IMG/VR virus record: IMGVR_UViG_3300007735_000680
Coordinates: 1-36,513 of that record
From: a virus
Length of the DNA: 36,513 nt
Strand: one strand, 5' to 3'
The notes under the pieces were generated by a model. The model was not told the origin of the DNA. It saw only the letters and a list, made by a program, of their open reading frames with translations, and searched no databases. Below, piece by piece: positions 256-13,101 of this stretch (position 1 is its first letter; each line of letters starts with the position of its first letter). The translations under genes were made by a program, and so were the position numbers.

Positions 256-285
256 ATATTATGGCACCTGAGACCGGGAAGTCAA
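256..285 (-). promoter_or_regulatory. Putative early promoter of the left-edge gene
   Basis: On the minus strand TTGACT (280-285), an 18-nt spacer and TAATAT (256-261) are followed 6 nt later by TTG at 249. The geometry matches the leaderless early promoters of this block, although the start codon is not ATG. Confidence 0.45.
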
Positions 286-445
286 GTCCCATAGCTTGAT
301 TACCTGCGGCTACCTGGAGCCGGCCAGAGCCTGGAGCTCTGGCCTCTGAGACCTGAGAGAAATTATTATTTCTTGGGGTCGTCCGGGGGTTCCGTATGGG
401 GGAGCTACGTTTACCCTGGCGGGCCGTACCATCCAGACCGTCCGA

Positions 446-505
446 GCTACTATCAGGCAGTCCAATAAAATCAGGAATTTCCAAAGCGAAATTCCTGATA
501 GTAGC
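446..505. repeat. Composite inverted repeat, copy R1
   Basis: On the plus strand GCTACTATCA (446-455) is followed by a short spacer, then an inner hairpin with arms ATCAGGAATTTC and GAAATTCCTGAT, then AGTAGC. The right end TGATAGTAGC is the exact reverse complement of the left end. The inner stem and the outer arms therefore compete for the same TGAT. Five such copies occur in the left block with conserved ends and different but self-complementary inner stems. Confidence 0.85.
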
Positions 506-510
506 TAAAG

Positions 511-554
511 AAATAATAAAGCCCCGGACTGGCTCTCTCCTTCCAGTCCAGGGC
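511..554 (-). terminator. Intrinsic terminator after the VWA gene
   Basis: Hairpin arms GCCCCGGACTGG (521-532) and CCAGTCCAGGGC (543-554) are followed on the minus strand by a T-rich tract (511-520, TTTATTATTT). It lies 25 nt past the stop of the leftward gene at 579. Confidence 0.8.
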
Positions 555-578
555 CCTGGGTTGTCCTAGCTCTGCCGG

Positions 579-2762
579 TTACTTGGCGTTGCGCTCATTC
601 CAAGTCAGGCCCGGAGGCAGGCGGTACATCGCCTCGTCATCGGTGCGGAGGGGTTGTCCCGCCACGATGTCCACATACTTGGTGAGGAACACGCGGCTGC
701 TGCTGCGCTTGCCCATCGTCTTGATGAAGGTGTTCTTCACCTTGACGAACGATCCGCTGTCCGCGATGGCCTCCGAATCGTCCACCGCCTTCATGCTGCG
801 GATGACGAAGAAGGCATCGTATCCGGGGTAGGTGGACTTGGGCAGGATCAGCGCACCGTCCTTGAACTGCTCGTTGCAGGCCGCATACCGGGGGGAGGAA
901 GTCGTGGTGTCGTAGGCGTACTTCTCGCGGAACTCGCGGTACTCCTTGCGCTTCATGCAGAAGGAACGGAACAGGTGATCGTTCAGCGTCCTGCTGTTCA
1001 CCACATACATACCCACGCACCGGGCGTTGAGGGACTGCTTCAGGGATTCGATCTGCGTGGCGATCACGGCGTTGGGAATGTCGATCTCGCCGTAGTCGGA
1101 GTGGCGCAGCGTCTTGATCGTGCCGAAGATGTCGTTCTGCACCATGATCGAATTGGACTGATTGATGAACGATCCGTTGTAGTTGTGGTCGAAGGTCGTG
1201 ATGCCGTTGGGCTGTCCGTCCGTCACGATCATCAGGGTCGGGATCTGAATGCTGTTCTCCGTCACCCACTCCTTCATGCGCTGCGAGACAATCGCCACCG
1301 CCTCCACCGTGGGAGTGCCACCGAAGCGAATCGGCTGCGGAAAGAAATTGTTCGGAATGCAGTAGGTGTTGTAGAGCATGGCAAGCAGACGCTCACGATC
1401 CGATGCCTTGTCCGTGGACGAAGCCAACTGCACAAGGCGGGTCGCTCCGATGTGCAGGCTCCGGGGCTTGGGGTTCTTGGGGTTGATGTCAAGGGACGAA
1501 CGGAAGTTGTGGCCGTAGGGGTCGGTGGCGTAGTGCCTGTCGCAGTACGCCTTGCGCTCCTTCTCCACCTTCTCCTCGTTGCCCCAATAGCCCAACTCGG
1601 TGAACCCGTACACCTCAAACGGGATCTTGGCCTTCTCGCAGAACCACACCAACTGCATCACTTGGTGGATGCAATTCCCGATGGTATCACCCATCGACCC
1701 GGAGAAATCGATCAGGAACATGATGCCGTGATTCTTGCCTTCCTGCTTCACGATCTTGGAAAGGAAGATATCGTCATGGGTGCGGAACTGGTGCAGGCGG
1801 TCAAGGTTGAGCATCCCCGTCTGCTTGGGGCGCTCCTTGCGGATCTCGTCCGCTGCCTTGCGGCGCTCAAACTGCGCCACCAACTGACGCACGAACGCAT
1901 CGGACTCGCGGACGAACTTGCGGTACTCCTCAAGCCCGTTTCCAAACCTGTCCGCGCTGGCCTTGTCGTAGGCGGCAAGCACGGAGGACGAGGGAATGAT
2001 CGCGTCCTTCAGGTTGTCGATGGGACTGATGATGACGCTCTCCATGTACACCTTCTCGCCATCCTTGCGGACGAACTTGCCGCCGATGTCCGAAAGCTCG
2101 GGAGAGGTTTCTGAAGTCTCGTCCCCATCCGGGTTGCCTTCCCCGCCCTCGGAATCGCCGTTGGCCTCAAGCGCCTTCTGAATGGTGTCCTTCATGGCGG
2201 GGTGATCGTACAGCGTCTTTGCGAGGGCGAACGCCTCCTCAAAGGTCTGCACCGCGTCCACCAACGGGAGAAGTTCCTTCTCGTCATCGTTCAGGGGGAC
2301 GGTGATGAAGCCCGGAACGCCCCACTTGAAGTGACCGTTGAGGCGCGAGACAAGACCCGCCTTGTGCCACGGGAAGGACGCAAGATTGAACATATTCTTG
2401 TCGATCATCTCCTTGTAGCCGATGAAGAAGTCACGGCGGGTTCCGGGGTACTTCTGCTTCATCAACTTTTCGATGCGAACATCCTCAATGGTGTTGCAGA
2501 TGGAGTGCAGGATCTTCTTGTTGTACCCCTCGGCCTCGGCCTGCTTGAACAGCCGCTCGGACAACTCGTAGGGGGTCCACAGCGCGTGGGCGATCTCATG
2601 CGCCACAAGCATGGTACGCATGGTGTCGGACACATCCCACAGGGGCATGATGAGGTGGCGGTTCTTCACATCGAAGGATGCGGTTTCCGCCTCCGCGTCA
2701 AAGGCGAAGGTCAGGTTCTCGGAGGCGAGTGCGCGGGCGAAGATGGAGAGAGAGTCGTTCAT
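579..2762 (-). CDS. VWA-domain protein with HExxH metallopeptidase motif (CobT-like partner of the AAA+ ATPase)
   Basis: 727 residues. The N-terminal part carries an intact zinc-protease motif HEIAH (H55-H59), as in predicted metallopeptidases joined to VWA domains. A central acidic linker (about 220-245) follows. A von Willebrand A domain near residue 350 has the MIDAS motif DFSGS, a downstream GGTPT and TDGQP. Proteins of this kind pair with MoxR/CobS-type AAA+ ATPases, and such an ATPase is encoded just upstream at 3206-4480. In phages these pairs are often labelled CobS/CobT, but the HExxH motif argues for a protein-remodelling or proteolytic role; that is inference. The ATG at 2762 is chosen because a TTGACC-N16-TATAAT promoter ends 7 nt before it and no Shine-Dalgarno is present, implying a leaderless or nearly leaderless message. 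Confidence 0.8.
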   Translation of the reverse strand: MNDSLSIFARALASENLTFAFDAEAETASFDVKNRHLIMPLWDVSDTMRTMLVAHEIAHALWTPYELSERLFKQAEAEGYNKKILHSICNTIEDVRIEKLMKQKYPGTRRDFFIGYKEMIDKNMFNLASFPWHKAGLVSRLNGHFKWGVPGFITVPLNDDEKELLPLVDAVQTFEEAFALAKTLYDHPAMKDTIQKALEANGDSEGGEGNPDGDETSETSPELSDIGGKFVRKDGEKVYMESVIISPIDNLKDAIIPSSSVLAAYDKASADRFGNGLEEYRKFVRESDAFVRQLVAQFERRKAADEIRKERPKQTGMLNLDRLHQFRTHDDIFLSKIVKQEGKNHGIMFLIDFSGSMGDTIGNCIHQVMQLVWFCEKAKIPFEVYGFTELGYWGNEEKVEKERKAYCDRHYATDPYGHNFRSSLDINPKNPKPRSLHIGATRLVQLASSTDKASDRERLLAMLYNTYCIPNNFFPQPIRFGGTPTVEAVAIVSQRMKEWVTENSIQIPTLMIVTDGQPNGITTFDHNYNGSFINQSNSIMVQNDIFGTIKTLRHSDYGEIDIPNAVIATQIESLKQSLNARCVGMYVVNSRTLNDHLFRSFCMKRKEYREFREKYAYDTTTSSPRYAACNEQFKDGALILPKSTYPGYDAFFVIRSMKAVDDSEAIADSGSFVKVKNTFIKTMGKRSSSRVFLTKYVDIVAGQPLRTDDEAMYRLPPGLTWNERNAK

Positions 2763-2769
2763 GTGGTGA

Positions 2770-2797
2770 ATTATATCCGTGGGGGGTTTCGGGTCAA
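2770..2797 (-). promoter_or_regulatory. Early promoter of the VWA gene, nearly leaderless
   Basis: Minus strand TTGACC (2792-2797), 16-nt spacer, TATAAT (2770-2775), then 7 nt to the ATG. An AAAATAATTT motif lies 21 nt upstream of the -35 box, the same distance as at the 4480 promoter. Confidence 0.85.
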
Positions 2798-2845
2798 GTG
2801 GCAAGTGCGCCAGGAATCAAATTATTTTTGGGTCCTATAATCCGG

Positions 2846-2905
2846 GCTACTATCAGCCATCCAGTCCATCAAGGGCCGGCAAAGTTGCCGGCCCTTGATA
2901 GTAGC
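2846..2905. repeat. Composite inverted repeat, copy R2
   Basis: GCTACTATCA, a 13-nt spacer (GCCATCCAGTCC type), then a long GC-rich inner stem with arms ATCAAGGGCCGGC and GCCGGCCCTTGAT, then AGTAGC. Total 60 nt, the same as R1. It sits between the terminator of the CobS operon and the promoter of the VWA gene. Confidence 0.85.
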
Positions 2906-2946
2906 TAAAAGAATACCCCGCCCCGGTGTTTAGCCGGGGTCGGGGT
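2906..2946 (-). terminator. Intrinsic terminator of the CobS operon
   Basis: A GC-rich hairpin (arms ACCCCGCCCCGG and CCGGGGTCGGGGT, 2915-2946) is followed on the minus strand by a T-rich tract (ATTCTTTTAG). It lies just past the stop of the leftward gene at 2957. Confidence 0.75.
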
Positions 2947-2956
2947 TCTCCTGGAT

Positions 2957-3181
2957 TCAGACCGTGGCGGTCGTGGTGGTGAACAGACCGGAGAGGTCGT
3001 ACACACCTTTCTGCGCCGTCTTGAAATCCTTCAGCACCCAAGTCGGGATGCCCTTCATGTTGATCGCCTGCGCGACCGCGAGAAGGTCAGGCTTGGTGAA
3101 CTGCGCGTTGGAAAGATTCTTGTCCTTCGCGTAGCCCTGTGCGGCCTGAACGAAACGGTTTCTCTTGTTGAGGTAAGGCAT
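2957..3181 (-). CDS. Small protein of the CobS/VWA cluster, unknown function
   Basis: 74 residues, not recognised. Basic N-terminus (MPYLNKRNRFVQAAQGYAKD) followed by a compact domain with TKPDLLAVAQAINMKGIPTW and a Thr-rich C-terminus. Its length and helix-rich look suggest a small DNA- or protein-binding domain, but no motif fixes a role. It is the second cistron after the AAA+ ATPase, separated by 24 nt with a strong AGGAGG ribosome-binding site. This contrasts with the leaderless first cistrons around it. A hairpin terminator follows directly. Confidence 0.7.
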   Translation of the reverse strand: MPYLNKRNRFVQAAQGYAKDKNLSNAQFTKPDLLAVAQAINMKGIPTWVLKDFKTAQKGVYDLSGLFTTTTATV

Positions 3182-3205
3182 TTTGGTGTTCCTCCTTTCT
3201 TGAGG

Positions 3206-4480
3206 TTAGGCGTTGATGGCGTAGTTGGTCATACCGTCTGCGGTGCTGACGGTGGTTGCGGGAATCGGAATCGTGGCGTTCGCCTTGTCCATCCCCTCCG
3301 GGGTCGGGAGGATGGTCGGGTCGATCTTGGTGTAGAGGTTGAAGAACGCCTCCTGCGTGGCGGCATCGAACCGCGTGAGCGTCAACTTGATCGCCTTCTG
3401 CTTGTCGTTGAAGATGGCGAACGCCTTGCACACCTCCTCCAAGCGGCGGGTCGTGATGATGTCATCCAAGCCGCCCTCCTTGAAGCCCAAGCGGATCGTT
3501 TCCGCCCACTTGACGAGGTAGTTGGCAAAGTCCTTGTCCTCCTTGCCATACGCCTTCATCTTGCGGATGATGATGCGCGCCTCCACGGTGCGATCCGCGT
3601 AGTCCTGCTCAAACCAGTAGGAGAAGCGGTCAAGGTACGCTTCGTTGAGGCAGCGCGTCCCCACGAACCGATCAGACTCGCCCTTGCCCTTTGTGTTCGC
3701 GGTGGCGATCACATTGAACCCGTTGGCAGGCTTGACGAACACGCCGATCTTCTTGACGAACACGCCCTTGCCCTCAAGCACGGGCTGAAGGCACATCATG
3801 CGCTCCGTGCCAAGATCGATCTCGTCCAAGAGGAGGATCGCCCCGCGCTGCATGGCCTGAACCACGCCACCGAACACGAACTTCGTTTCGCCGTTGATGA
3901 GGCGGAAGCCACCGATGAGGTCATCCTCGTCAGTCTCGGCGGTGATGTTCACGCGGATGAGTTCCCGTCCGGTGTTGGCGCAAATCTGTTCGATCATCGT
4001 GGTCTTGCCGTTGCCCGACAGACCCGTGATGTAGACGGGAGCGAACTGCTTGCTCTTGACGATGGTGCTGATGTCATCGTAGTGTCCCCACGGAACGAAA
4101 GTGTCGTTCTTCATCGGGACGAGCGAAACATCGGAGGAGGGAGCGATGAGGTTGTAGGTGCTGCTGCTCATGGTGGAGATTGTATCGTGTGAATCGGAAG
4201 TTTCAAGAATCTTCTCTGAAGATTCCTCAACATTTTCGGTGGCATCCCCGGAGAACATCTCCGGGATCTTGTAGAGGCCACGCCCCTCGCGGCGGGATGG
4301 ATCCTGCACAAGCCATGCGGGGAGAACCTTGTAGCAGTCCTCTCCGTGAACATTGGCGGAAGTGAGGGCGGCATTGCAGTCATCACGGCTGTAGACTGCT
4401 GCCTCAACGGTGGCAGGAAGGCCAACGACTCGGGCAAGTGCGCGGAGGAAGTTCTGCTTTCGGGTGTCGATGTTGCTCAT
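3206..4480 (-). CDS. cobS: CobS/MoxR-like AAA+ ATPase
   Basis: 424 residues. Walker A GLSGNGKT (153-160), Walker B ILLLDEID (215-222) and sensor-1 ATANT (about 259-263) are all intact, in the arrangement of CobS/MoxR AAA+ ATPases. The region before the ATPase (about 70-125) is Ser/Glu/Asp-rich and probably a linker; the first 60 residues form a separate small domain. CobS-like genes are common in T4-type marine phages and are usually annotated as cobaltochelatase subunits. Beside a VWA-metallopeptidase gene, an AAA+ remodelling function is at least as likely (inference). The ATG at 4480 is chosen because TATCAT ends 6 nt before it. An in-frame ATG 18 nt upstream lies inside the -10/spacer region. 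Confidence 0.85.
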   Translation of the reverse strand: MSNIDTRKQNFLRALARVVGLPATVEAAVYSRDDCNAALTSANVHGEDCYKVLPAWLVQDPSRREGRGLYKIPEMFSGDATENVEESSEKILETSDSHDTISTMSSSTYNLIAPSSDVSLVPMKNDTFVPWGHYDDISTIVKSKQFAPVYITGLSGNGKTTMIEQICANTGRELIRVNITAETDEDDLIGGFRLINGETKFVFGGVVQAMQRGAILLLDEIDLGTERMMCLQPVLEGKGVFVKKIGVFVKPANGFNVIATANTKGKGESDRFVGTRCLNEAYLDRFSYWFEQDYADRTVEARIIIRKMKAYGKEDKDFANYLVKWAETIRLGFKEGGLDDIITTRRLEEVCKAFAIFNDKQKAIKLTLTRFDAATQEAFFNLYTKIDPTILPTPEGMDKANATIPIPATTVSTADGMTNYAINA

Positions 4481-4486
4481 GCAAGC

Positions 4487-4515
4487 ATGATACGACATTG
4501 GAGCTTTGAGGTCAA
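4487..4515 (-). promoter_or_regulatory. Leaderless early promoter of the CobS operon
   Basis: Minus strand TTGACC (4510-4515), 17-nt spacer, TATCAT (4487-4492), then GCTTGC and the ATG at 4480. An AAAATAATTT motif lies 21 nt upstream of the -35 box. Confidence 0.85.
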
Positions 4516-4604
4516 GAGGATTGGTCGGAAGATTGCAAATTATTTTTGCGTCCGATAACCAAGGGCCGGCACTCCAGGCTTACCTGCAGCTATAGGACAT
4601 CCAG

Positions 4605-4679
4605 GCTACTATCAGGAAATTATTATAAGCCATCCAATCCATCAGGATTTCCACATAAGGTGGAAATCCTGATAGTAGC
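4605..4679. repeat. Composite inverted repeat, copy R3
   Basis: GCTACTATCA (4605-4614), a 28-nt spacer ending in GCCATCCAATCC, inner stem arms ATCAGGATTTCCAC and GTGGAAATCCTGAT around ATAAG, then AGTAGC. It lies between a terminator and the CobS promoter region. Confidence 0.85.
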
Positions 4680-4680
4680 T

Positions 4681-4719
4681 CCAATAACACACAGACCCCC
4701 TAGCAGGAGGGGGTCTGTG
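4681..4719 (-). terminator. Hairpin terminator after the 4752 gene
   Basis: Perfect 11-bp stem CACAGACCCCC/GGGGGTCTGTG (4690-4719) followed on the minus strand by TGTTATTGG, a short T-rich tail. It lies downstream of the leftward gene ending at 4752. Confidence 0.7.
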
Positions 4720-4751
4720 GAAGATCTCGGAAGCGCGAAGCGCGGGGGGAA

Positions 4752-5009
4752 TTACGCTTCCGAGTTGTAGTAGGACTTGGAGGGGGTTTCTGATCTTTCG
4801 ACCATAACCTTCTCAATGTTGGAGATCCGCTTGTGAACGGACTCAAAGTTCTCGTCCATCCAATCGTTCATACCACGATTGGCTTCCTGCATCTCCTTGC
4901 GGAGATCCTGCATCTTCATCTTGATGCTGTAGTGGTACAGAATACCACCGAGGACAAGCGAGATCAACCAACCAAGTCCCGAGATGTCGTAGGTCGTTAC
5001 CGTTTCCAT
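4752..5009 (-). CDS. Small membrane-anchored coiled-coil protein
   Basis: 85 residues, not recognised. A short N-terminus is followed by one hydrophobic segment (GLGWLISLVLGGILYHYSI, about residues 11-29). A charged helical part (MQDLRKEMQEANRGMNDWMD, then SVHKRISNIEKVMVERSE) looks like a coiled coil. The layout resembles small phage inner-membrane proteins such as spanin-like or superinfection-immunity proteins, but there is no specific signature. ATG at 5009 lies 6 nt after a TATAAT box, and there is no Shine-Dalgarno. Confidence 0.7.
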   Translation of the reverse strand: METVTTYDISGLGWLISLVLGGILYHYSIKMKMQDLRKEMQEANRGMNDWMDENFESVHKRISNIEKVMVERSETPSKSYYNSEA

Positions 5010-5015
5010 GTGCAG

Positions 5016-5044
5016 ATTATACTCTCTTCCTGGGTTCGTGTCAA
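5016..5044 (-). promoter_or_regulatory. Leaderless early promoter of the 4752 gene
   Basis: Minus strand TTGACA (5039-5044), 17-nt spacer, perfect TATAAT (5016-5021), then CTGCAC and the ATG at 5009. Confidence 0.88.
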
Positions 5045-5063
5045 GTGGAAAAGAAAAAGAAAA

Positions 5064-5139
5064 TGGGAAGGGCGGGAGTTGCACCCACATGTTCACGCTT
5101 ATAAGGCATGCGCTCTAACTACTTTTCAGCCACCTTCCC
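5064..5139 (-). tRNA. tRNA-Ile(UAU)
   Basis: A 76-nt cloverleaf on the minus strand. Acceptor arms are GGGAAGG/CCTTCCC with discriminator A. The anticodon stem CATGC/GCGTG encloses loop CTTATAA with anticodon UAU, which reads AUA. T-stem GTGGG/CCCGC with loop TGCAACT. The T-loop lacks the usual TTC, and the D-arm lacks a clear GG, so the tRNA is slightly atypical. CCA is not encoded. The 3' end runs into a T-rich tract (TTTTCTTTTTC), a likely terminator. It has its own promoter at 5247-5275. Confidence 0.8.
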
Positions 5140-5246
5140 GAATGGGAAACTAATTTTACGGCTAGTTCCCAACCGTGCAACCGTAGGTTGCCTCTATGCG
5201 GTTTTTCTAAACCACCAAAACTTATAATATAATCGAATTGGTGTAC

Positions 5247-5275
5247 ATTATACACTCCTTTGTGCCGGTTGTCAA
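5247..5275 (-). promoter_or_regulatory. Promoter of tRNA-Ile
   Basis: Minus strand TTGACA (5270-5275), 17-nt spacer, perfect TATAAT (5247-5252), starting 1 nt beyond the 3' end of tRNA-Arg. About 100 nt of leader with a small GCAACC-GTA-GGTTGC type hairpin separate it from tRNA-Ile. Confidence 0.8.
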
Positions 5276-5276
5276 G

Positions 5277-5350
5277 CGTCCTCGGTTGGATTCGAACCAA
5301 CGACCTGCCGCTTAGAAGGCGGCTGCTCTATCCAACTGAGCTACGAAGAC
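5277..5350 (-). tRNA. tRNA-Arg(UCU)
   Basis: Minus-strand cloverleaf. Acceptor GTCTTCG pairs with CGAGGAC, including one G-T pair, with discriminator G. Anticodon stem GCCGC/GCGGC with loop CTTCTAA gives anticodon UCU for AGA/AGG. The T-arm has a canonical TTCGAAT loop. No encoded CCA. It supports AGA-rich late genes in a GC-rich host (inference). Confidence 0.92.
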
Positions 5351-5455
5351 AAGTCGAAGGCTACTTTACTGCACTACGATTACGAAGAATCGGACTTGGC
5401 AGACTTTCACCTTCTCAACTTGGACGGCCTTGAAGAAGAACCGTCTCTGTTTTAG

Positions 5456-5540: not shown

Positions 5541-5545
5541 GAAGT

Positions 5546-5776
5546 TCACTCATCGTCTATGATGGTGAATCCCTTTCCAAGTCTCTCCTCCAACTCCTCT
5601 GCTGCTGCCTTCTCAAGACTCTCCTCGGTGTAGCCCGATGCACGAATGGCTACCTTGAGGCGAGTGATGGCTCCCCTGACGGTCGGATCTGTCTCGCAGG
5701 CAACTTCCAAGCCTGCCATCAGATCCGTCACATACAGCGGACTCATGCTGAATTCGATTCGCTTGTGGTCGCTCAT
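5546..5776 (-). CDS. Small acidic protein, unknown
   Basis: 76 residues, not recognised. Helix-rich and acidic; the C-terminal half (ESLEKAAAEELEERLGKGFT) looks like an amphipathic helix, and the protein ends IIDDE. First cistron with a leaderless-type promoter, probably cotranscribed with the downstream tRNA-Leu and tRNA-Arg. ATG at 5776 is 6 nt after TAAAAT. Confidence 0.65.
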   Translation of the reverse strand: MSDHKRIEFSMSPLYVTDLMAGLEVACETDPTVRGAITRLKVAIRASGYTEESLEKAAAEELEERLGKGFTIIDDE

Positions 5777-5782
5777 GTTCTT

Positions 5783-5811
5783 ATTTTAGAACAAGTCGGG
5801 AGTCGTGTCAA
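5783..5811 (-). promoter_or_regulatory. Leaderless early promoter of the 5546 gene
   Basis: Minus strand TTGACA (5806-5811), 17-nt spacer, TAAAAT (5783-5788), then AAGAAC and the ATG. The promoter lies inside the 3' end of the upstream gene, whose TAA stop (5786-5788) is part of the -10 box. Confidence 0.85.
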
Positions 5812-6073
5812 GATTTTTCTTGACATTTTGCAGACCGAACTTTGCATGAATTTCTTCATAAAATTCGGAGTTGGGAGTCACAACGGACTCATGCAGACGG
5901 TTGCCGTTGATCGCAATGCTGGCAGCATCGACCGCATCGAAGTAGGCATCGATGAGCTCCTTTGGAGGATTGGCGTTGCCTTCCATCCAATGTTCGACCA
6001 TGAGGTCGGCCAGGATTACAACCCTGTCGTACATCTGAAGGGCGAAGATCTGTTGTTCGTCAGGTGTTAGCAT
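5786..6073 (-). CDS. Small protein, unknown
   Basis: 95 residues, not recognised. Mostly helical and acidic (MLTPDEQQIFALQMYDRVVI; then KELIDAYFDAVDAASIAING). ATG at 6073 is chosen because TACAAT ends 6 nt upstream. Its last ten codons carry the promoter of the next gene and its stop codon is that promoter's -10 box. Confidence 0.65.
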   Translation of the reverse strand: MLTPDEQQIFALQMYDRVVILADLMVEHWMEGNANPPKELIDAYFDAVDAASIAINGNRLHESVVTPNSEFYEEIHAKFGLQNVKKNLDTTPDLF

Positions 6074-6079
6074 GGGTGT

Positions 6080-6108
6080 ATTGTATCGGGTTCTGTTGTG
6101 GGTGTCAA
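6080..6108 (-). promoter_or_regulatory. Leaderless early promoter of the 5786 gene
   Basis: Minus strand TTGACA (6103-6108), 17-nt spacer, TACAAT (6080-6085), then ACACCC and the ATG at 6073. Confidence 0.87.
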
Positions 6109-6124
6109 ACCAACTTGAGAGGAA

Positions 6125-6132: not shown

Positions 6133-6149
6133 TGTTTGGAGGTCTACAG

Positions 6150-6584
6150 ATGAATCCAGACAAACGCAAAACTTCTAATTGCCAACATTGCAAAATTACT
6201 TTTAAGTATGGTAGGAACCGTACTGGAAAGTTTTGCTCTAATGAATGTTGTGCTGCTCACAGAAAACAAAAGAATCTTGAGCAATGGTTGTCTGGATCTT
6301 CTGACGGAATCCAAATCGCTAGTAGACGGCTTTCTGTTGGTGTTCGAAACTACCTGATCGAACAAGCTGGAAATAAATGTTCACAGTGTGGTTGGGACAA
6401 AATTAACCCTGTGTCTGGAAAGTGTCCTCTGGAGGTTGATCACATAGATGGAAATTCAGAGAACTGCTCTCAAGAAAATTTAAGAGTTTTGTGCCCAAAC
6501 TGCCATGCTCTTACTCCAACCTATCGTGCCTTGAATACTGGGAAAGCAAATCCCAAAAGATTGAAATATTCAAGACTTGTCTAA
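6150..6584 (+). CDS. HNH endonuclease (probable free-standing homing endonuclease)
   Basis: 144 residues. An N-terminal zinc-finger-like part (CQHC near residues 10-13, then FCSNEC) precedes a typical C-terminal HNH domain: CSQCGW, PLEVDHIDGN, NLRVLCPNCHALT. The DHIDGN...N...LCPNCH series is the ββα-metal nuclease core. The gene is AT-rich and on the opposite strand from its GC-rich neighbours. Its stop codon abuts the 3' end of tRNA-Lys, all signs of an inserted homing-type nuclease. ATG 6150 is chosen for its GGAGG at 8-nt spacing; in-frame ATGs upstream lie at or near the late octamer. Confidence 0.88.
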   Translation: MNPDKRKTSNCQHCKITFKYGRNRTGKFCSNECCAAHRKQKNLEQWLSGSSDGIQIASRRLSVGVRNYLIEQAGNKCSQCGWDKINPVSGKCPLEVDHIDGNSENCSQENLRVLCPNCHALTPTYRALNTGKANPKRLKYSRLV

Positions 6585-6658
6585 TGGGCTCGGTGAGAGT
6601 CGAACTCACAAATCTACGCATTAAAAGTGCGTTGCATTAACCATTTTGCTACGAGCCC
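6585..6658 (-). tRNA. tRNA-Lys(UUU)
   Basis: Minus-strand cloverleaf. Acceptor GGGCTCG/CGAGCCC with discriminator A. Anticodon stem ACGCA/TGCGT with loop CTTTTAA gives anticodon UUU for AAA/AAG. T-loop TTCGACT. No encoded CCA. Transcribed from its own promoter at 6672-6701; the converging HNH gene ends at its 3' boundary. Confidence 0.92.
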
Positions 6659-6671
6659 TAACTGCTCCCCT

Positions 6672-6701
6672 ATTGTAACCGGGGGAGCACGGTGCTGTCA
6701 A
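6672..6701 (-). promoter_or_regulatory. Promoter of tRNA-Lys
   Basis: Minus strand TTGACA (6696-6701), 18-nt spacer, TACAAT (6672-6677). It lies immediately after the stop codon of the 6703 gene. The spacer holds an inverted repeat (GTGCTCCCCC and GGGGAGCA either side of the -10 box). Confidence 0.7.
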
Positions 6702-6702
6702 G

Positions 6703-7059
6703 TCACTCGTTGTCCTGCGGATGATCCTTCATCTGCGGATAGAGTTTGCTTTCGTCCTCGGATGCGAACCGCTTGCTGCTTTCGATCCTCTCCGCGAGAA
6801 CCATGCAGAAGGCGGATTCCGTGAGCGTGACCTCGGGCTCGCCACCGTCACGAATCACCTGTTCGATGTGTTCGGTGATGGATGAGAGTCCACCGCACAC
6901 CATCAGGCGCATGTGGGCGTTGCGATACCAAGTCGGGTTGAGTCCGACAAGGCGAACCAACGCCTCAAGCAGCATGCGGGGGGTCGGCTTTGCGAGGTTC
7001 ATGGCCGGGTGGTCATCTTCCTCAAAGAAGTCTTGGAAGTCGTTGCGGGGTTCGTTCAC
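6703..7059 (-). CDS. Acidic protein, unknown
   Basis: 118 residues, not recognised. An acidic N-terminus (NDFQDFFEEDDHP), a helical middle (RMLLEALVRLVGLNPTWYRN) and a charged C-terminus. The start is GTG at 7059, giving a GTGA overlap with the stop of the upstream gene, so translation is probably coupled. It has no promoter of its own. Confidence 0.6.
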   Translation of the reverse strand: MNEPRNDFQDFFEEDDHPAMNLAKPTPRMLLEALVRLVGLNPTWYRNAHMRLMVCGGLSSITEHIEQVIRDGGEPEVTLTESAFCMVLAERIESSKRFASEDESKLYPQMKDHPQDNE

Positions 7060-7286
7060 GGGAGAATCCTTTGCTTGCAGGTGGTGAAGATTTCCATGAC
7101 GAAAGTGAACTCATCTTCCGTCAGGTGTTCGGGGTTGCTCATCTTGGTGAGGATGTTGTAGCCTGCCATCATTCGGTGGATCAGGTCATCGTCATCCGCC
7201 CAATCGGGGTACTTCTCAACGCAGGAACTCATGGCGTTGAGCAGGTCGCTGACATTCGTGGTGGTTGGTGCGTGTGGTCGGTGCAT
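7056..7286 (-). CDS. Small protein, unknown
   Basis: 76 residues, not recognised; helical, acidic middle (YPDWADDDDLIHRMMAGYNI). First cistron of a two-gene unit with 6703-7059. ATG at 7286 is 6 nt after a perfect TATAAT, with no Shine-Dalgarno. Confidence 0.65.
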   Translation of the reverse strand: MHRPHAPTTTNVSDLLNAMSSCVEKYPDWADDDDLIHRMMAGYNILTKMSNPEHLTEDEFTFVMEIFTTCKQRILP

Positions 7287-7292
7287 GGGTGC

Positions 7293-7320
7293 ATTATACG
7301 GGTTGGGCGTTCTGTGTCAA
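7293..7320 (-). promoter_or_regulatory. Leaderless early promoter embedded in a gene end
   Basis: Minus strand TTGACA (7315-7320), 16-nt spacer, perfect TATAAT (7293-7298), then GCACCC and ATG at 7286. The promoter encodes the last residues (LTQNAQPV) of the upstream gene, and the TAA stop (7294-7296) is inside TATAAT. Confidence 0.9.
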
Positions 7321-7596
7321 GGGCAGAATCAGCATTTCTGCGGAGAAAGATTTGTCGCCCATGTGGTTCAGGAAGATTCGAATTTCATTCGCGGGAAGCG
7401 TGTCCGGCAGGTCAAGCTCACCGATGGTCACGCAACCACCCATCGGGGAAATGCCAATCTCAAACCGTCCCATGCCTCCCTTGGTGAAGGAGTATCGTGC
7501 CGCACGGCAAACTTTTGCATAAAGTTCGTTTGCACGGCGAACGGCCCAGGACTTGCTCTTGATGGGAGTGTGGACATGCATGGTGCGAATGATCAT
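7294..7596 (-). CDS. Small protein, unknown
   Basis: 100 residues, not recognised. Basic N-terminal half (TPIKSKSWAVRRANELYAKV) and a β-rich C-terminal half with repeated Gly and Met (FEIGISPMGGCVTIGELDLP). ATG at 7596 overlaps the upstream stop as ATGA. An in-frame upstream ATG would lie deep in that gene. Second cistron, no own promoter. Confidence 0.65.
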   Translation of the reverse strand: MIIRTMHVHTPIKSKSWAVRRANELYAKVCRAARYSFTKGGMGRFEIGISPMGGCVTIGELDLPDTLPANEIRIFLNHMGDKSFSAEMLILPLTQNAQPV

Positions 7597-7814
7597 TCGA
7601 AGTCCTCCGGGTCTACGAGTTCTGCGATATCCCCGTACCACTCATCGGGATAATCGGAAGTGTGGGCAGGCTCGTACTCATCGGGATCGTAGAAGCCCAC
7701 CATGCGCTTGGCTTGGTCGCGGGTGTAGCCTTCCTCCATGAGCATTTCGATGGCCTCCTCGGGAGTCATCTCATCGTGGTCGTCATCGTAAGCGAGTGGA
7801 TCGATTTCGTTCAT
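7593..7814 (-). CDS. Small highly acidic protein, unknown
   Basis: 73 residues rich in Asp and Glu (YDDDHDEMTPEEAIEMLMEE, then a tail ending DPEDFE). The middle (EEAIEMLMEEGYTRDQAKRM) resembles a UBA-like three-helix segment, a weak resemblance only. Such acidic early proteins can mimic DNA or bind host proteins, but nothing here proves it. ATG at 7814 is 6 nt after TATACT. Confidence 0.65.
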   Translation of the reverse strand: MNEIDPLAYDDDHDEMTPEEAIEMLMEEGYTRDQAKRMVGFYDPDEYEPAHTSDYPDEWYGDIAELVDPEDFE

Positions 7815-7820
7815 GCACGC

Positions 7821-7848
7821 AGTATACGCATCTGGGGGTTCGCGTCAA
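7821..7848 (-). promoter_or_regulatory. Leaderless early promoter of the 7593 gene
   Basis: Minus strand TTGACG (7843-7848), 16-nt spacer, TATACT (7821-7826), then GCGTGC and ATG at 7814. An AAATAATAT motif lies 11 nt upstream of the -35 box, next to repeat R4. Confidence 0.83.
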
Positions 7849-7877
7849 GGGGCAAAAACATATTATTTCTTGGGGCG

Positions 7878-7952
7878 GCTACTATCAGGCCGTCCGATAA
7901 TATGCGCGTTTCTGGGAGATCAGCCGGTCCAGGATGGACCGGCTGATAGTAG
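7878..7952. repeat. Composite inverted repeat, copy R4
   Basis: GCTACTATCA (7878-7887), a spacer starting GGCCGTCCGATAATATGC, inner stem arms ATCAGCCGGTCCA and TGGACCGGCTGAT around GGA, then AGTAGT. The last base of the right arm differs from the other copies. Immediately followed by a leftward terminator. Confidence 0.82.
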
Positions 7953-7958
7953 TCCGAT

Positions 7959-7990
7959 AAAAATAAAAATCCCCTGATAAGAATCAGGGG
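7959..7990 (-). terminator. Intrinsic terminator
   Basis: Stem CCCCTGAT/ATCAGGGG (7971-7990) followed on the minus strand by ATTTTTATTTTT. It is the left boundary of the transcription unit that includes the 8107 gene. The 116 nt between the terminator and that gene (7991-8106) hold no confident gene. Confidence 0.85.
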
Positions 7991-8106
7991 AGGAAGGCTC
8001 CAATACCTTCCACCATCTGGGGTGTAACGGGCCCAGACTTTCAGGGGCATCAGGCTAGCCGCTCCACCCCTCTCAGAGTGTGAGCTTAGCCCCCTTGGAT
8101 TTTATT

Positions 8107-8394
8107 TCACGGGTTGAAGTCGGACTCGTCCAAGTTGGACATGTTCCACTCCACGGCGTTGGACTCATGGAAACGAATCCAGCCCTTCTTCTGAATGTCC
8201 CACGCCACGATGTAGTGAGGATCTTCGGCCTTCACATACTTCGGGCGCTTGTTCACCGGGATGAAGTTTTGGTTGCGGGTGATGTACCGCTCCGTGGTCG
8301 TGTCATCGGTCTTGCGGAACTTGACGAAGCACACTCCCCCGGTGGAGAGGGCTGCGCGGATGTCACGGGCGGTTTCGATTGCTGCGGTGGTCAT
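8107..8394 (-). CDS. SH3-like β-barrel protein (WYL_2/DUF2693-type)
   Basis: 95 residues. The segment VCFVKFRKTDDTTTERYITR, then FIPVNKR, then VAWDIQKKGWIRFHESNAVEW has the pattern of a small β-barrel family frequent in T4-type phages (a VxFxKxDG-like first strand and a VWDxxKxxWRxFxxxxV C-terminal part). The same pattern occurs in the last half of the 13573-14121 protein. Function unknown; such folds often bind nucleic acid or proteins. ATG at 8394 is 6 nt after TACAAT. Confidence 0.7.
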   Translation of the reverse strand: MTTAAIETARDIRAALSTGGVCFVKFRKTDDTTTERYITRNQNFIPVNKRPKYVKAEDPHYIVAWDIQKKGWIRFHESNAVEWNMSNLDESDFNP

Positions 8395-8400
8395 GAGTGT

Positions 8401-8428
8401 ATTGTACGCTTTCTGCGTTTCGTGTCAA
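8401..8428 (-). promoter_or_regulatory. Leaderless early promoter of the 8107 gene
   Basis: Minus strand TTGACA (8423-8428), 16-nt spacer, TACAAT (8401-8406), then ACACTC and ATG at 8394. The TGA stop of the upstream gene (8425-8427) lies inside TTGACA. Confidence 0.88.
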
Positions 8429-8649
8429 GCCCGAGTTCGAATGTATTTCATGCCACCGAGAAGGAAGGTGATGACATAAACCTCAACCAAGCAGCCCACC
8501 GCACAGAAGGCGAACACCATCTTGCCGTGGTGATGGGAAGTTTCGAAGGCGATCCACCCGAACACGACAGGAGCCAGCCACATGATTGCGAGGATGGTCG
8601 CAAAGAACACACGGTTGATTCCCGACTTGAGAAGCTTGTCGTAGAGCAT
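8425..8649 (-). CDS. Small membrane protein with two hydrophobic segments
   Basis: 74 residues, not recognised. Two hydrophobic segments (FFATILAIMWLAPVVFGWIA, about 15-34; MVFAFCAVGCLVEVYVITFL, about 44-63) are joined by a short His-rich loop (SHHHGK). Both ends are basic, so both are probably cytoplasmic. ATG at 8649 lies 6 nt after TACAAT. Confidence 0.7.
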   Translation of the reverse strand: MLYDKLLKSGINRVFFATILAIMWLAPVVFGWIAFETSHHHGKMVFAFCAVGCLVEVYVITFLLGGMKYIRTRA

Positions 8650-8655
8650 GGGTGG

Positions 8656-8684
8656 ATTGTATCACACCGAGGCGGGATTGTCAA
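8656..8684 (-). promoter_or_regulatory. Leaderless early promoter of the 8425 gene
   Basis: Minus strand TTGACA (8679-8684), 17-nt spacer, TACAAT (8656-8661), then CCACCC and ATG at 8649. The -35 and spacer are coding sequence of the upstream gene, which stops immediately before the -10 box. Confidence 0.86.
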
Positions 8685-8958
8685 CCAAAGAATTCAATCT
8701 TTCTTCGATTGCCAACTTTTCTTGGTAGAGGGCGAGGGCCGTGGACATGCCGCAGATGATGTTGAACAGTTGGCGCTTCGGGATGAATCCGCACATGGTG
8801 ATGCTGTCCGCTGCGGTCGTTCCGGGAATCTTCCGCATGAGTTGGAACCCGCCGTATGCGCCCTGAACGAAGAACGCATTATCGGCGGTGTTGCCCATCG
8901 TCTTGTTGAGGACGGTGAGAGCGTGATCCAACTTCTGCTTGGTGATGATCGGTCGCAT
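8662..8958 (-). CDS. Small protein, unknown
   Basis: 98 residues, not recognised. Mixed α/β look; no catalytic motif seen (MRPIITKQKLDHALTVLNKT start; MCGFIPKRQLFNIICGMSTA central). ATG at 8958 is 6 nt after TAGAAT. Its final codons (LVDNPASV) carry the -35 box and spacer of the next gene. Confidence 0.65.
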   Translation of the reverse strand: MRPIITKQKLDHALTVLNKTMGNTADNAFFVQGAYGGFQLMRKIPGTTAADSITMCGFIPKRQLFNIICGMSTALALYQEKLAIEERLNSLVDNPASV

Positions 8959-8964
8959 GGGTGT

Positions 8965-8992
8965 ATTCTATCCTTTTTGAGTTTGGTGTCAA
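8965..8992 (-). promoter_or_regulatory. Leaderless early promoter of the 8662 gene
   Basis: Minus strand TTGACA (8987-8992), 16-nt spacer, TAGAAT (8965-8970), then ACACCC and ATG at 8958. Confidence 0.86.
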
Positions 8993-8994
8993 GA

Positions 8995-9021
8995 GGGGGG
9001 AGGGGCACCACCCCCTCCCCC
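8995..9021 (-). terminator. GC-rich hairpin between transcription units
   Basis: GGGGAGGGG and CCCCTCCCC arms (8995-9021) lie between the stop of the 9032 gene and the next promoter. There is no T-tract, so it may stop transcription weakly or protect a 3' end. Confidence 0.5.
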
Positions 9022-9031
9022 ATGCACCCAT

Positions 9032-9367
9032 TCACACCGATCCGAATTCCAGTTCGTGGAGTTCCTTCATGGCCTCGCAGATCCTGTCGCAGTTCTTCTC
9101 GCCGTTGGTGGCCAGTTCCACATACGAGATCTTCTGATCCATGATGTCCTGGAGCATCTTGGCGGGATCACCGTGCAGCTCGCGCATCACCTGCACGATA
9201 AGCATTCGCTCGGCGGTGCTGAACCAGTGAATCGGCAGTCCGGTGATGATCTCGCAGATTGCGAGTGCCGCGAGGGTTTCCTTCCGGTTGCCCTTGACCT
9301 GATTCATCACATCGGCAACGGTGGAGATAGCTTCGATCAGTTCGGTGGCCTTGTGGGTGCGCTTCAT
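9032..9367 (-). CDS. Helical protein, unknown
   Basis: 111 residues, not recognised; almost entirely α-helical in appearance (ATELIEAISTVADVMNQVKG; MLIVQVMRELHGDPAKMLQD). Second cistron of a two-gene unit. ATG at 9367 follows the upstream stop by 2 nt, with AAGGA 6 nt before it, so it uses a conventional ribosome-binding site. Confidence 0.65.
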   Translation of the reverse strand: MKRTHKATELIEAISTVADVMNQVKGNRKETLAALAICEIITGLPIHWFSTAERMLIVQVMRELHGDPAKMLQDIMDQKISYVELATNGEKNCDRICEAMKELHELEFGSV

Positions 9368-9369
9368 GT

Positions 9370-9591
9370 TCAGTCCTTGGTGGTGAGGAGTTCGGTGATC
9401 TCGGAACACTCGGGAGTTTCCTCCCGGAACTTTGCGAGGTAGGGATAATCCTTCTCGCAGTTTCGGACGATCTCAACCAGTTCGGCCTCGCGGGAGGAAG
9501 TCATCGTGAACGCCTCATAGACGAGTTCCCGACAAGCCCGAGCGTGGATGTAGAAGTGGGCGATCTCGCGCTTGGTGATGAGTGGGGTCAT
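9370..9591 (-). CDS. Small helical protein, unknown
   Basis: 73 residues, not recognised (MTPLITKREIAHFYIHARAC start). The N-terminus (PLITKREIAHF) resembles that of the 8662 protein (RPIITKQKLDHA), hinting at a shared N-terminal module. First cistron; ATG at 9591 is 6 nt after GATAAT. Confidence 0.65.
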   Translation of the reverse strand: MTPLITKREIAHFYIHARACRELVYEAFTMTSSREAELVEIVRNCEKDYPYLAKFREETPECSEITELLTTKD

Positions 9592-9597
9592 GTCCGT

Positions 9598-9625
9598 ATT
9601 ATCCCTGTTTGAAGTTTGGTGTCAA
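9598..9625 (-). promoter_or_regulatory. Leaderless early promoter of the 9370/9032 unit
   Basis: Minus strand TTGACA (9620-9625), 16-nt spacer, GATAAT (9598-9603), then ACGGAC and ATG at 9591. The TGA stop of the upstream gene (9622-9624) is inside TTGACA. Confidence 0.86.
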
Positions 9626-10020
9626 GCGGAAATCTTGGAAATCTTTTCCGCCTGACGCTGGACCAGATCCAGGAAATCCTTGGCACACCCCTTGAATGCC
9701 AGGGCCACGATGTCCTCCCCGGTAGACCCCGTGAGGATCGCATCCCCGTAGAGGTTCTGTCCCGTGAGGAGGGCAGCGCGAAGATTGAACTTCGGATTGG
9801 CGACCATCAGGCCGCAGTCATCGACCCACATGTCGGTGGGCATCCCGATGGCCCGATGAACCTCAGGGCTGACATCGGTGCGGGTGACGAACGTGCAGCC
9901 GATCATCTCGGACACCGTGAAGAGGCAATCGGTGGAGTTGGGAATCTCCACGGTGCGCATCGGCATGCTGAGGTCTGCGGGGATGAGGAGGGCGGGGATG
10001 GTGGTGGTCTTGGTGTGCAT
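9622..10020 (-). CDS. Protein of unknown function
   Basis: 132 residues, not recognised. β-rich with several hydrophobic strands (TTTIPALLIPADLSMPMRTV; DMWVDDCGLMVANPKFNLRA) and a helical C-terminus (DFLDLVQRQAEKISKISA). ATG at 10020 is 6 nt after TATACT. Single-gene unit whose stop codon is part of the next promoter. Confidence 0.65.
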   Translation of the reverse strand: MHTKTTTIPALLIPADLSMPMRTVEIPNSTDCLFTVSEMIGCTFVTRTDVSPEVHRAIGMPTDMWVDDCGLMVANPKFNLRAALLTGQNLYGDAILTGSTGEDIVALAFKGCAKDFLDLVQRQAEKISKISA

Positions 10021-10026
10021 GCGTGT

Positions 10027-10054
10027 AGTATACGCATCCCAGGTTTGGGGTCAA
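10027..10054 (-). promoter_or_regulatory. Leaderless early promoter of the 9622 gene
   Basis: Minus strand TTGACC (10049-10054), 16-nt spacer, TATACT (10027-10032), then ACACGC and ATG at 10020. An AT-rich AATTATAATAAT motif lies about 14 nt upstream of the -35 box, next to repeat R5. Confidence 0.85.
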
Positions 10055-10086
10055 GGGGTTGGTGCGAGATTATTATAATTTTTTGG

Positions 10087-10158
10087 GCTACTATCAGCGT
10101 TATCGTACCATCCTGGAGTGGGCATCAGACCGGCACATCGTGCCGGTCTGATAGTAGC
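10087..10158. repeat. Composite inverted repeat, copy R5
   Basis: GCTACTATCA (10087-10096), a variable spacer, inner stem arms ATCAGACCGGCAC and GTGCCGGTCTGAT around ATC, then AGTAGC. One extra G-C pair extends the outer arms (GGGCTACTATCA and TGATAGTAGCCC). Confidence 0.85.
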
Positions 10159-10179
10159 CCTCCCCCCTCAAACAACCTA

Positions 10180-10198
10180 GCCCCGAACGAATCGGGGC
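10180..10198 (-). terminator. Hairpin between transcription units
   Basis: Stem GCCCCGA/TCGGGGC around ACGAA (10180-10198), followed on the minus strand by TAGGTTGTTTGAGG, a weak T-rich tail. Same position relative to the repeat as the other terminators of this block. Confidence 0.6.
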
Positions 10199-10240
10199 AG
10201 GGACGAATCCTTTTCGGTTAGTTCCCGTAGACCACCACAG

Positions 10241-10489
10241 TCACCGGGAAGCGTGGTCTAGTTTGGACTGAATCCCGCGCAGGTAGTTCAGTTCTTCGAC
10301 TGTCTCCCGCTGAAACTCAGTCCCGTTCTCGTTACGCCGCGTGTAGCCGTTGAGTTCCTGCATGCAGCTTACCACGGCGCGGAACATGATGTCCTCAAGA
10401 AGTTTAATTTCTTTCGGAGAAAGTTCGATTGCCGGACGCGCCTTCTTGCGAATCCTGGGGAGGGTGGCGGTGCTCACATTTCCCCCCAT
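10241..10489 (-). CDS. Small basic/helical protein, unknown
   Basis: 82 residues from the ATG, not recognised. Basic N-terminus (RIRKKARPAIELSPKEIKLL) followed by a helical body. The ATG at 10489 overlaps the upstream gene by 16 nt. An in-frame GTG at 10477 would give a GTGA overlap with the upstream stop and has a G-rich tract just before it, so GTG is a realistic alternative start. Second cistron, no own promoter. Confidence 0.6.
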   Translation of the reverse strand: MGGNVSTATLPRIRKKARPAIELSPKEIKLLEDIMFRAVVSCMQELNGYTRRNENGTEFQRETVEELNYLRGIQSKLDHASR

Positions 10490-10794
10490 CCCGCAGACGC
10501 GAGCCAGTCGTTATCGTCCTCATAATACGGGGCCTCCGCGTCACCGATGTGCTCGTCCGTGTACGGAAGCTCCTCCTCGTACAGCTCCGGCCCGTCCTCC
10601 GGGCCTTCGGCCTCCTCGGGGCAACCACGGTCGGGATCGTAGTCGCAGTCGCGACCGCAGATGTGCTCGGGGCGCTCATCGTAGTAGGCGTTAATGTCAG
10701 CCTCGCAGTCCTCGCACAGGTCGGTGACATTGGCGAGAATCAGAACGCCGCAGGCGCGGCAGGTGCAGGGGTTGTCGGCGGGGGTGGTGGTCAT
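10474..10794 (-). CDS. Zinc-ribbon-like acidic protein, unknown
   Basis: 106 residues. An N-terminal cysteine set (CTCRACG, then CEDC about 15 residues later) looks like a zinc ribbon, with further cysteines (CGRDCDYDPDRGC) behind it. The C-terminal half is extremely acidic (EEAEGPEDGPELYEEELPYT). Function unknown. First cistron; ATG at 10794 is 6 nt after TACAAT. Confidence 0.65.
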   Translation of the reverse strand: MTTTPADNPCTCRACGVLILANVTDLCEDCEADINAYYDERPEHICGRDCDYDPDRGCPEEAEGPEDGPELYEEELPYTDEHIGDAEAPYYEDDNDWLASAGWGEM

Positions 10795-10800
10795 GGGCGT

Positions 10801-10829
10801 ATTGTACGCTTTCCTGGGGTTCGTGTCAA
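10801..10829 (-). promoter_or_regulatory. Leaderless early promoter of the 10474/10241 unit
   Basis: Minus strand TTGACA (10824-10829), 17-nt spacer, TACAAT (10801-10806), then ACGCCC and ATG at 10794. Confidence 0.87.
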
Positions 10830-10894
10830 GGGGTCAGATCGGAAATTTCTGAAATTTGTTTCGGCAGCTATCGGCCGGCCACTAGGTGGGGTTA

Positions 10895-10921
10895 GGGGAG
10901 AGGGAAACGATCCCCCTCCCC
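10895..10921 (-). terminator. GC-rich hairpin after the 10935 gene
   Basis: GGGGAGAGGG pairs with CCCCCTCCCC with one mismatch (10895-10921), 14 nt past the stop of the leftward gene. No T-tract follows; terminator role is inferred from position. Confidence 0.45.
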
Positions 10922-10934
10922 GTCCCTGACCACA

Positions 10935-11492
10935 TTAGTCGGCCTTCCCCCGGATGACGACCCACAGCAGGGCCTGCAGCGTAGCGGGAGACATGCAGAC
11001 GGCGGGAGTGAGCGCGAGCGTCCGAATCGCGTCCGCGATGGCACGGTACTCGGTCACATTCGGGGCATCCTTCCCCAGCCCAGCCGCACGGCACATCCAA
11101 ACATCCACCACCACCGCGTCCGCGTCCCCCGCGATGGCACGGGCGAACGCATTCGTCTTCGGGCCGCGCAGTCCGTTGAATCCTTCCACCACGCACCGAT
11201 CCGCAGCGACCACATGCGAACGCAGTCCGCGCGGCGTGATGCCCTGCGCATACTGCAGCGCCTTCGCCTTGTTATGGGCCCAAGTGACGCGGGGAGAGAA
11301 TGCGGAGACCACGCTAGCCGCGGTTTCCATGCTCCACTCGGGGCGGATGAGCGTCAGCGAGTAGGCGAACTCATTAGCCTCGGAGTACCAAGCCTTCGCC
11401 GCATGGTAGTCGGCAACGGTGGCACGGCGCAGCAGAGTGATGAAGTTAGCGAGCGCGAGGGATCGGACGGATTCGTAGCGGGTGGTGGTCAT
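10935..11492 (-). CDS. Conserved phage protein, possible helix-hairpin-helix glycosylase-like fold
   Basis: 185 residues. The pattern VVSAFSPRVTWAHNKAKALQ, then LRGPKTNAFARAIAGD, then AVVVDVWMCRAAG and a C-terminal LQALLWVVIRG matches, from memory, a family of uncharacterised phage and actinobacterial proteins. The SP...N.../K...F/VD.W series resembles the layout of HhH-GPD DNA glycosylases, where a conserved Asp follows the HhH. No reaction can be assigned. ATG at 11492 is 6 nt after TATCAT. It is the outermost gene of the leftward early block. Confidence 0.65.
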   Translation of the reverse strand: MTTTRYESVRSLALANFITLLRRATVADYHAAKAWYSEANEFAYSLTLIRPEWSMETAASVVSAFSPRVTWAHNKAKALQYAQGITPRGLRSHVVAADRCVVEGFNGLRGPKTNAFARAIAGDADAVVVDVWMCRAAGLGKDAPNVTEYRAIADAIRTLALTPAVCMSPATLQALLWVVIRGKAD

Positions 11493-11498
11493 GTGTGT

Positions 11499-11526
11499 AT
11501 GATACGCATACGCTGGCCCATGTCAA
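11499..11526 (-). promoter_or_regulatory. Leaderless early promoter of the 10935 gene
   Basis: Minus strand TTGACA (11521-11526), 16-nt spacer, TATCAT (11499-11504), then ACACAC and ATG at 11492. An AATAATAATAATTT motif lies 23 nt upstream of the -35 box. Confidence 0.86.
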
Positions 11527-13096: not shown

Positions 13097-13101
13097 GAAA
13101 A

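Follow-up and report, generated by a model that had tools for sequence, protein, structure and literature searches.

Promoters abutting start codons suggest leaderless transcription of early and late genes in an uncultured T4-like phage lineage

Early promoters lie at a fixed distance from start codons

The 36,513-nucleotide stretch analysed here (the window), a 36.5-kb virus record in IMG/VR (IMGVR_UViG_3300007735_000680), is a fragment of a T4-like myovirus in which promoters sit at short, nearly constant distances from start codons, an arrangement that would yield leaderless mRNAs. Its left part encodes a CobS/MoxR-like ATPase and a CobT/peptidase-like protein, both known from T4-like cyanophages, and its right part encodes T4-type genes, including a gp32-like single-stranded DNA (ssDNA)-binding protein and tail tube, baseplate and head-closure proteins. 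GC content drops from about 57% to 35% near 12 kb.

A mechanical consensus scan of the whole window for sigma70-type −35/−10 pairs reproduced every coordinate of an initial annotation that had listed 13 first cistrons with the −10 box ending exactly 6 nt before the start codon, and a further gene, starting at 2762, with 7 nt. All 13 carry a −35/−10 pair with a spacer of 16–17 nt. The −35 box had been given as TTGACR, which describes most starts but not 4480, 10020 and 2762 (TTGACC); the −10 box had been given as mostly TATAAT, TACAAT or TATACT, which accounts for 8 of the 13, the others being TATCAT (two), GATAAT, TAGAAT and TAAAAT. One start had been missed, 4171, which lies inside the 4480 gene at 7 nt. 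The leaderless-type promoters, each given from the −35 box through the ATG, are as follows.

11490..11526, minus strand: TTGACA, 16-nt spacer, TATCAT, 6 nt, ATG 11492; gene 10935-11492, DUF7178 family (PF23802)
10792..10829, minus strand: TTGACA, 17-nt spacer, TACAAT, 6 nt, ATG 10794; gene 10474-10794
10018..10054, minus strand: TTGACC, 16-nt spacer, TATACT, 6 nt, ATG 10020; gene 9622-10020
9589..9625, minus strand: TTGACA, 16-nt spacer, GATAAT, 6 nt, ATG 9591; gene 9370-9591
8956..8992, minus strand: TTGACA, 16-nt spacer, TAGAAT, 6 nt, ATG 8958; gene 8662-8958
8647..8684, minus strand: TTGACA, 17-nt spacer, TACAAT, 6 nt, ATG 8649; gene 8425-8649
8392..8428, minus strand: TTGACA, 16-nt spacer, TACAAT, 6 nt, ATG 8394; gene 8107-8394, WYL_2-like (just below the Pfam cut-off)
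7812..7848, minus strand: TTGACG, 16-nt spacer, TATACT, 6 nt, ATG 7814; gene 7593-7814
7284..7320, minus strand: TTGACA, 16-nt spacer, TATAAT, 6 nt, ATG 7286; gene 7056-7286
6071..6108, minus strand: TTGACA, 17-nt spacer, TACAAT, 6 nt, ATG 6073; gene 5786-6073
5774..5811, minus strand: TTGACA, 17-nt spacer, TAAAAT, 6 nt, ATG 5776; gene 5546-5776
5007..5044, minus strand: TTGACA, 17-nt spacer, TATAAT, 6 nt, ATG 5009; gene 4752-5009
4478..4515, minus strand: TTGACC, 17-nt spacer, TATCAT, 6 nt, ATG 4480; CobS/MoxR-like AAA ATPase, 3206-4480
4169..4206, minus strand: TTGAAA, 16-nt spacer, TACAAT, 7 nt, ATG 4171; internal promoter, in-frame shorter CobS, 3206-4171
2760..2797, minus strand: TTGACC, 16-nt spacer, TATAAT, 7 nt, ATG 2762; CobT/peptidase-like, 579-2762; 6 nt in relatives

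On the minus strand of bases 1–12000, 18 promoter matches were observed against a mean of 0.25 in 200 dinucleotide-preserving shuffles, and 13 ATG codons stood at 6 nt compared with 0 in each of the 200 shuffles (binomial P about 2e-19), which excludes chance. The remaining strong promoters of the block lie ahead of a tRNA or tRNA cluster (6701, 5275) or at the 7-nt starts 2762 and 4171, and one, at 285, has no open reading frame (ORF) in the window.

The early spacing is conserved across a lineage of its own

Named phages are all distant from the window, with less than 60% identity for each of three window proteins compared, whereas large IMG/VR relatives are 79–88% identical in the CobS core and 87–96% in the ssDNA-binding protein. 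The major capsid protein gp23 shares 79–83% identity among the lineage members compared and about 50% with phages HTVC008M, P-HM1 and phiM12, and the relatives therefore form a lineage of their own. The window is best placed in a T4-like myovirus whose uncultured lineage is of roughly family rank. The T4 core genes gp17, gp20, gp21, gp23, gp32, gp55 and uvsW are present in the lineage as a whole; the window itself holds the ssDNA-binding protein and tail and baseplate genes, and the rest are found in relatives.

We counted −10-to-ATG distances in ten contigs, the window included, taking each ATG that begins an ORF 40 codons long or longer. The 6-nt excess that the initial annotation had anticipated among relatives is a sharp peak: 141 ATG codons lie at 6 nt, 18 at 7 nt and about 3 at each other distance, alongside 13 more at 0 nt where the −10 box supplies the ATG (TATAATG). 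At 6 nt there are 4 GTG codons and no TTG. The 159 starts at 6 or 7 nt represent 69 protein clusters, so the peak is not one gene counted repeatedly. Between homologous early starts the six bases before the ATG differ at 51%, and their length is held; C directly precedes the ATG in 118 of 141. Many pairs of homologous proteins can be aligned right from codon 1. The −10 box has its first T at −12, the leaderless position across bacteria (PMC3160421). Among the GC-rich early genes, A+C makes up 77% of bases 4–24 compared with 53% further in, with ACC and AAC dominant. CA-rich starts can favour leaderless translation. A simple scan for intrinsic terminators ahead of early promoters found 1 in 159, with no enrichment; a structured element, described below, often lies in between.

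Late promoters show a parallel arrangement

In the same ten contigs, we scanned for T4-type late boxes, NATAAATA or TCTAAATA, and found 84 ATG codons at 5 nt from the box, 21 at 6 nt and about 6 elsewhere. The T4 late box is 8 bp long with its first base at −13 (PMC2988020), and a box ending 5 nt before the ATG would therefore place +1 on the A of the ATG. The initial annotation had assigned leaderless expression to the early programme; the early spacing supports that reading, but the arrangement is not only early, as these gp55-type late promoters share it. Examples in the window are given below.

13108..13123, plus strand: late box GATAAATA, 5 nt, ATG 13121; gene 13121-13312; overlaps the divergent late promoter of 13096
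13094..13109, minus strand: divergent late box TCTAAATA, 5 nt, ATG 13096; 24 bp between the 13096 and 13121 start codons
15413..15428, plus strand: late box TCTAAATA, 5 nt, ATG 15426; endonuclease VII-like, 15426-15920
33870..33885, plus strand: late box TATAAATA, 5 nt, ATG 33883; baseplate wedge, gp25-like, 33883-34266
29463..29478, minus strand: late box CCTAAATA, 5 nt, ATG 29465; head closure, 29043-29465

These late promoters lie on the AT-rich side of the window, and across the lineage homologues of gp3, gp13, gp25, gp48 and of head-closure proteins are among the genes served by such promoters. An intrinsic terminator stands just upstream of 18 of 105 late leaderless-type promoters, compared with 1.1% of random sites, and divergent late pairs have start codons 22–37 bp apart with late boxes overlapping or adjacent; the abutting terminators and tight pairs thus leave little or no space for a leader. 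A gp55 homologue is encoded by relatives (E values 1e-15 to 1e-17). In most contigs the gp55 gene itself has a host-type promoter about 6 nt before a GTG, as judged by eye, so an ATG-only rule for all leaderless starts is not strict.

Separately, in all lineage contigs in which a uvsW homologue was found (G001–G003, G005, G006, G009, G012), the gene starts at a GTG with a late box 4 nt before it.

Shine-Dalgarno sequences mark the other genes

No Shine-Dalgarno enrichment was found at the early starts, where the initial annotation had seen no such motif (0.31 compared with 0.27 in shuffled sequence), or at late starts (0.07 compared with 0.06), whereas other genes have about twice the shuffled level (0.45 compared with 0.23). 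Among downstream cistrons, 17 of 69 (25%) start with GTG and 49% have a Shine-Dalgarno sequence. Most of the downstream cistrons originally described stand as such: 3181 carries AGGAGG, 9367 carries AAGGA, and 7059 and 7596 overlap the preceding stop. The start placed at 10489 may rather be a GTG at 10477, which, read from the sequence, overlaps the upstream stop as GTGA. The 3181 cistron is located as follows.

2957..3181, minus strand: downstream cistron with a strong Shine-Dalgarno sequence, AAGGAGG

The gp23 gene is preceded by a roughly 25-nt leader containing AGGAG. Its retention of a Shine-Dalgarno leader means that leaderless use is gene-specific and that the phage uses both modes.

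Leaderless transcription and its alternatives

Leaderless transcription of early first cistrons and of many late genes is very probably the best reading of these patterns. The host RNA polymerase with a sigma70-type factor would transcribe the early first cistrons with +1 at the first base of the ATG; at many late genes, gp55, the T4-type late factor, would likewise place +1 there. The resulting mRNAs would have no 5′ leader and no Shine-Dalgarno sequence, and intact 70S ribosomes would presumably recognise the 5′-terminal AUG, as is known from leaderless initiation elsewhere. Conventional Shine-Dalgarno leaders would be kept by downstream cistrons and by part of the late set, the major capsid gene among them. 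Several points count on the other side. RNA start points are deduced from consensus positions, and the spacing is 7 nt at two window starts (2762, 4171). Late start points may vary, as the uvsW GTG at 4 nt illustrates. The host evidently reads both kinds of mRNA, since gp23 and some other structural genes keep Shine-Dalgarno leaders. Finally, the relatives are metagenomic contigs, mostly fragments, and gene calls are ORF-based and uncurated.

Early units are tightly packed on one strand and some neighbours overlap, which would suit a scheme in which, despite promoters abutting the ATG, proteins are made mostly from longer read-through transcripts started upstream, by non-Shine-Dalgarno initiation in an unstructured leader. 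We consider this improbable, because intrinsic terminators directly precede some late leaderless-type promoters, divergent pairs share as little as 22–37 bp, and the fixed 6-nt spacing over 69 protein clusters would be left unexplained. It is more doubtful still that the ATG at +1 is incidental and that translation really begins at an internal codon preceded by a Shine-Dalgarno sequence of its own. A few genes do have internal ATGs, but internal Shine-Dalgarno starts in codons 3–25 number 6 of 159, not above codon-shuffled controls; amino-acid identity at codons 2–6 is as high as further in, and almost every start codon standing at 6 nt is an ATG. An origin by chance, from base composition or through chimeric assembly of a GC-rich actinophage piece with an AT-rich T4-like phage would fit the GC drop near 12 kb but is scarcely credible, and a chimeric contig is ruled out, because the GC-rich early island (window 1–12000) recurs inside the approximately 35% GC T4-like genomes of eight relatives (G001–G006, G008, G009), CobS and the ssDNA-binding protein occur on shared contigs, and late leaderless-type promoters are found on the AT-rich side. 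One further contig, G010, has early leaderless-type starts yet no GC-rich island.

Leaderless translation is usually studied gene by gene. If leaderless transcription is the correct account here, much of a phage programme would depend on this less-studied mode of initiation, in a lineage found in many metagenomes and with two promoter classes seemingly changed to the same end. We found no report of such a programme in the open-access literature searched. With this lineage it becomes possible to test whether the mode of translation governs protein dosage and host range in phages. The pattern also provides a guide to start annotation in related contigs and a sequence signature from which hosts might be predicted.

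Distribution and comparison with known systems

Among the phages compared, the early spacing is restricted to this lineage and the late spacing to the lineage and a pelagiphage. In a CobS tree, all contigs with early leaderless-type starts fall in one clade (99/96 support); the distant, low-GC G010/L046 is among them, though less securely placed owing to its long branch. Three rows inside the clade do not carry the leaderless label: L045, and the pair L003 and L042, which come from one contig. The 6-nt starts of L003 fall below the score or length limits, and L045 has one 6-nt start where the label requires two. The early 6-nt peak is absent from the sister contig G011, marine T4-like contigs, T4, P-HM1, HTVC008M, Cr30 and phiM12. 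Cr30 and phiM12 lack both early and late peaks, which rules out Caulobacter and Rhizobium T4-like phages as the source of the habit. A cyanophage identity was also rejected: psbA was found in 0 of 20 related contigs, which may be incomplete (and some cyanophages lack psbA), and P-HM1 has no 6-nt peak.

T4 transcribes its genes with sigma70 early and with gp55/gp33/gp45 late (PMC2988020). The lineage resembles T4 in having a gp55 homologue, late TATAAATA-type boxes and T4-type structural genes, but its late boxes lie 5 nt before the ATG, compared with mostly 12–28 nt in T4, whose early promoters have no 6-nt peak. Leaderless genes of Actinobacteria and Deinococcus-Thermus carry a TANNNT element some 12 nt ahead of their starts (PMC3160421, PMC12340547); the lineage shares the first T of the −10 box at −12 and the lack of Shine-Dalgarno excess at first cistrons, but differs in that its genes belong to phages, its −35 box is a well-conserved TTGACA and nearly all its early starts are ATG.

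Pelagibacter phage HTVC008M (L277–L284) is like the lineage in two respects: late boxes lie 5 nt before the ATG at 11 of 50 motifs (P = 1.5e-8), and one divergent pair is separated by 26 bp. It is unlike the lineage in lacking the early 6-nt peak and in a gp23 about 52% identical. Because the late peak is common to both, late leaderless-type promoters may be an older trait or may have arisen twice. We found no report of the 5-nt pattern of HTVC008M in the open-access literature searched; late promoters could not be predicted in a pelagimyophage study, and the 5-nt signature may help resolve them (PMC7029224).

The Thermus phages P23-45 and phiYS40 make leaderless transcripts and offer a precedent for a phage programme on leaderless mRNA. 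They are of an unrelated phage type, and the consensus used for the lineage found no such promoters in P23-45.

The host may be an actinobacterium

The initial annotation had pointed to a host of the Actinobacteria, Deinococcus or Caulobacter type, which our results bear out only in part. We lean slightly towards an actinobacterium. Two genes expressed from leaderless-type promoters have named phage relatives mainly among actinophages: all 34 of 34 phage matches of the DUF7178 gene (10935-11492) are in Mycobacterium phages, and 3 of 5 named relatives of a SpoU-type gene in relative G008 are in Rhodococcus phages. The window's GC3 is 0.78 in early genes and 0.27 in late genes, and phage tRNAs match codons ATA, AGA, TTG and AAA, which early genes seldom use and late genes use often, as expected for a GC-rich host. 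The tRNAs are these.

5064-5139: tRNA-Ile-UAU
5276-5350: tRNA-Arg-UCU
5455-5540: tRNA-Leu-CAA
6585-6658: tRNA-Lys-UUU

The dUTPase gave no actinophage signal, and WhiB was found in 0 of 20 related contigs, which is not decisive because many actinophages lack it. A search of genome contigs for a host link returned one off-lineage match only (46% identity, in a Muricauda metagenome-assembled genome), and the late trait shared with a pelagiphage counts against an actinobacterial host.

A broader proposal, which we hold only tentatively, is that a family-level T4-like lineage, probably infecting freshwater Actinobacteria (the habitat being our guess from IMG sample numbers), rebuilt its sigma70 and gp55 promoter classes around leaderless translation, with the presence or absence of a leader setting protein dose. 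In the dose scheme that forms part of it, minor virion parts and regulators would be leaderless and the major capsid protein would be made from a Shine-Dalgarno leader.

A nested CobS start and other features

The internal CobS promoter with its in-frame ATG at 7 nt (4171) is kept in seven contigs and lies in the variable N-terminal part, just ahead of the conserved core. Two CobS forms, of 424 and 321 residues in the window, would be expected. Shigella virF is described as giving a shorter protein form from a leaderless mRNA (PMC5101355); CobS is an unrelated gene, and its internal leaderless-type promoter should likewise give a shorter form.

No confirmed relative of the small early protein 10241-10489 was found in viral contigs. 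Between early gene 6073 and tRNA-Lys, an AT-richer, differently composed stretch (6120–6590) holds a plus-strand ORF running from 6072 or 6150 to 6584 (144 codons from ATG 6150), possibly an inserted gene.

A structured element, [AG]CTACTATC-stem-loop-spacer (often GGAC)-GATAGTAG[CT], of 55–104 nt occurs in 36 copies in nine contigs. Its stems vary in sequence yet still pair, and it often sits between the end of one unit and the next leaderless-type promoter. The window copies are listed here.

446-505, minus strand: structured element
2846-2905, minus strand: structured element
4605-4679, minus strand: structured element
7878-7953, minus strand: structured element
10087-10158, minus strand: structured element

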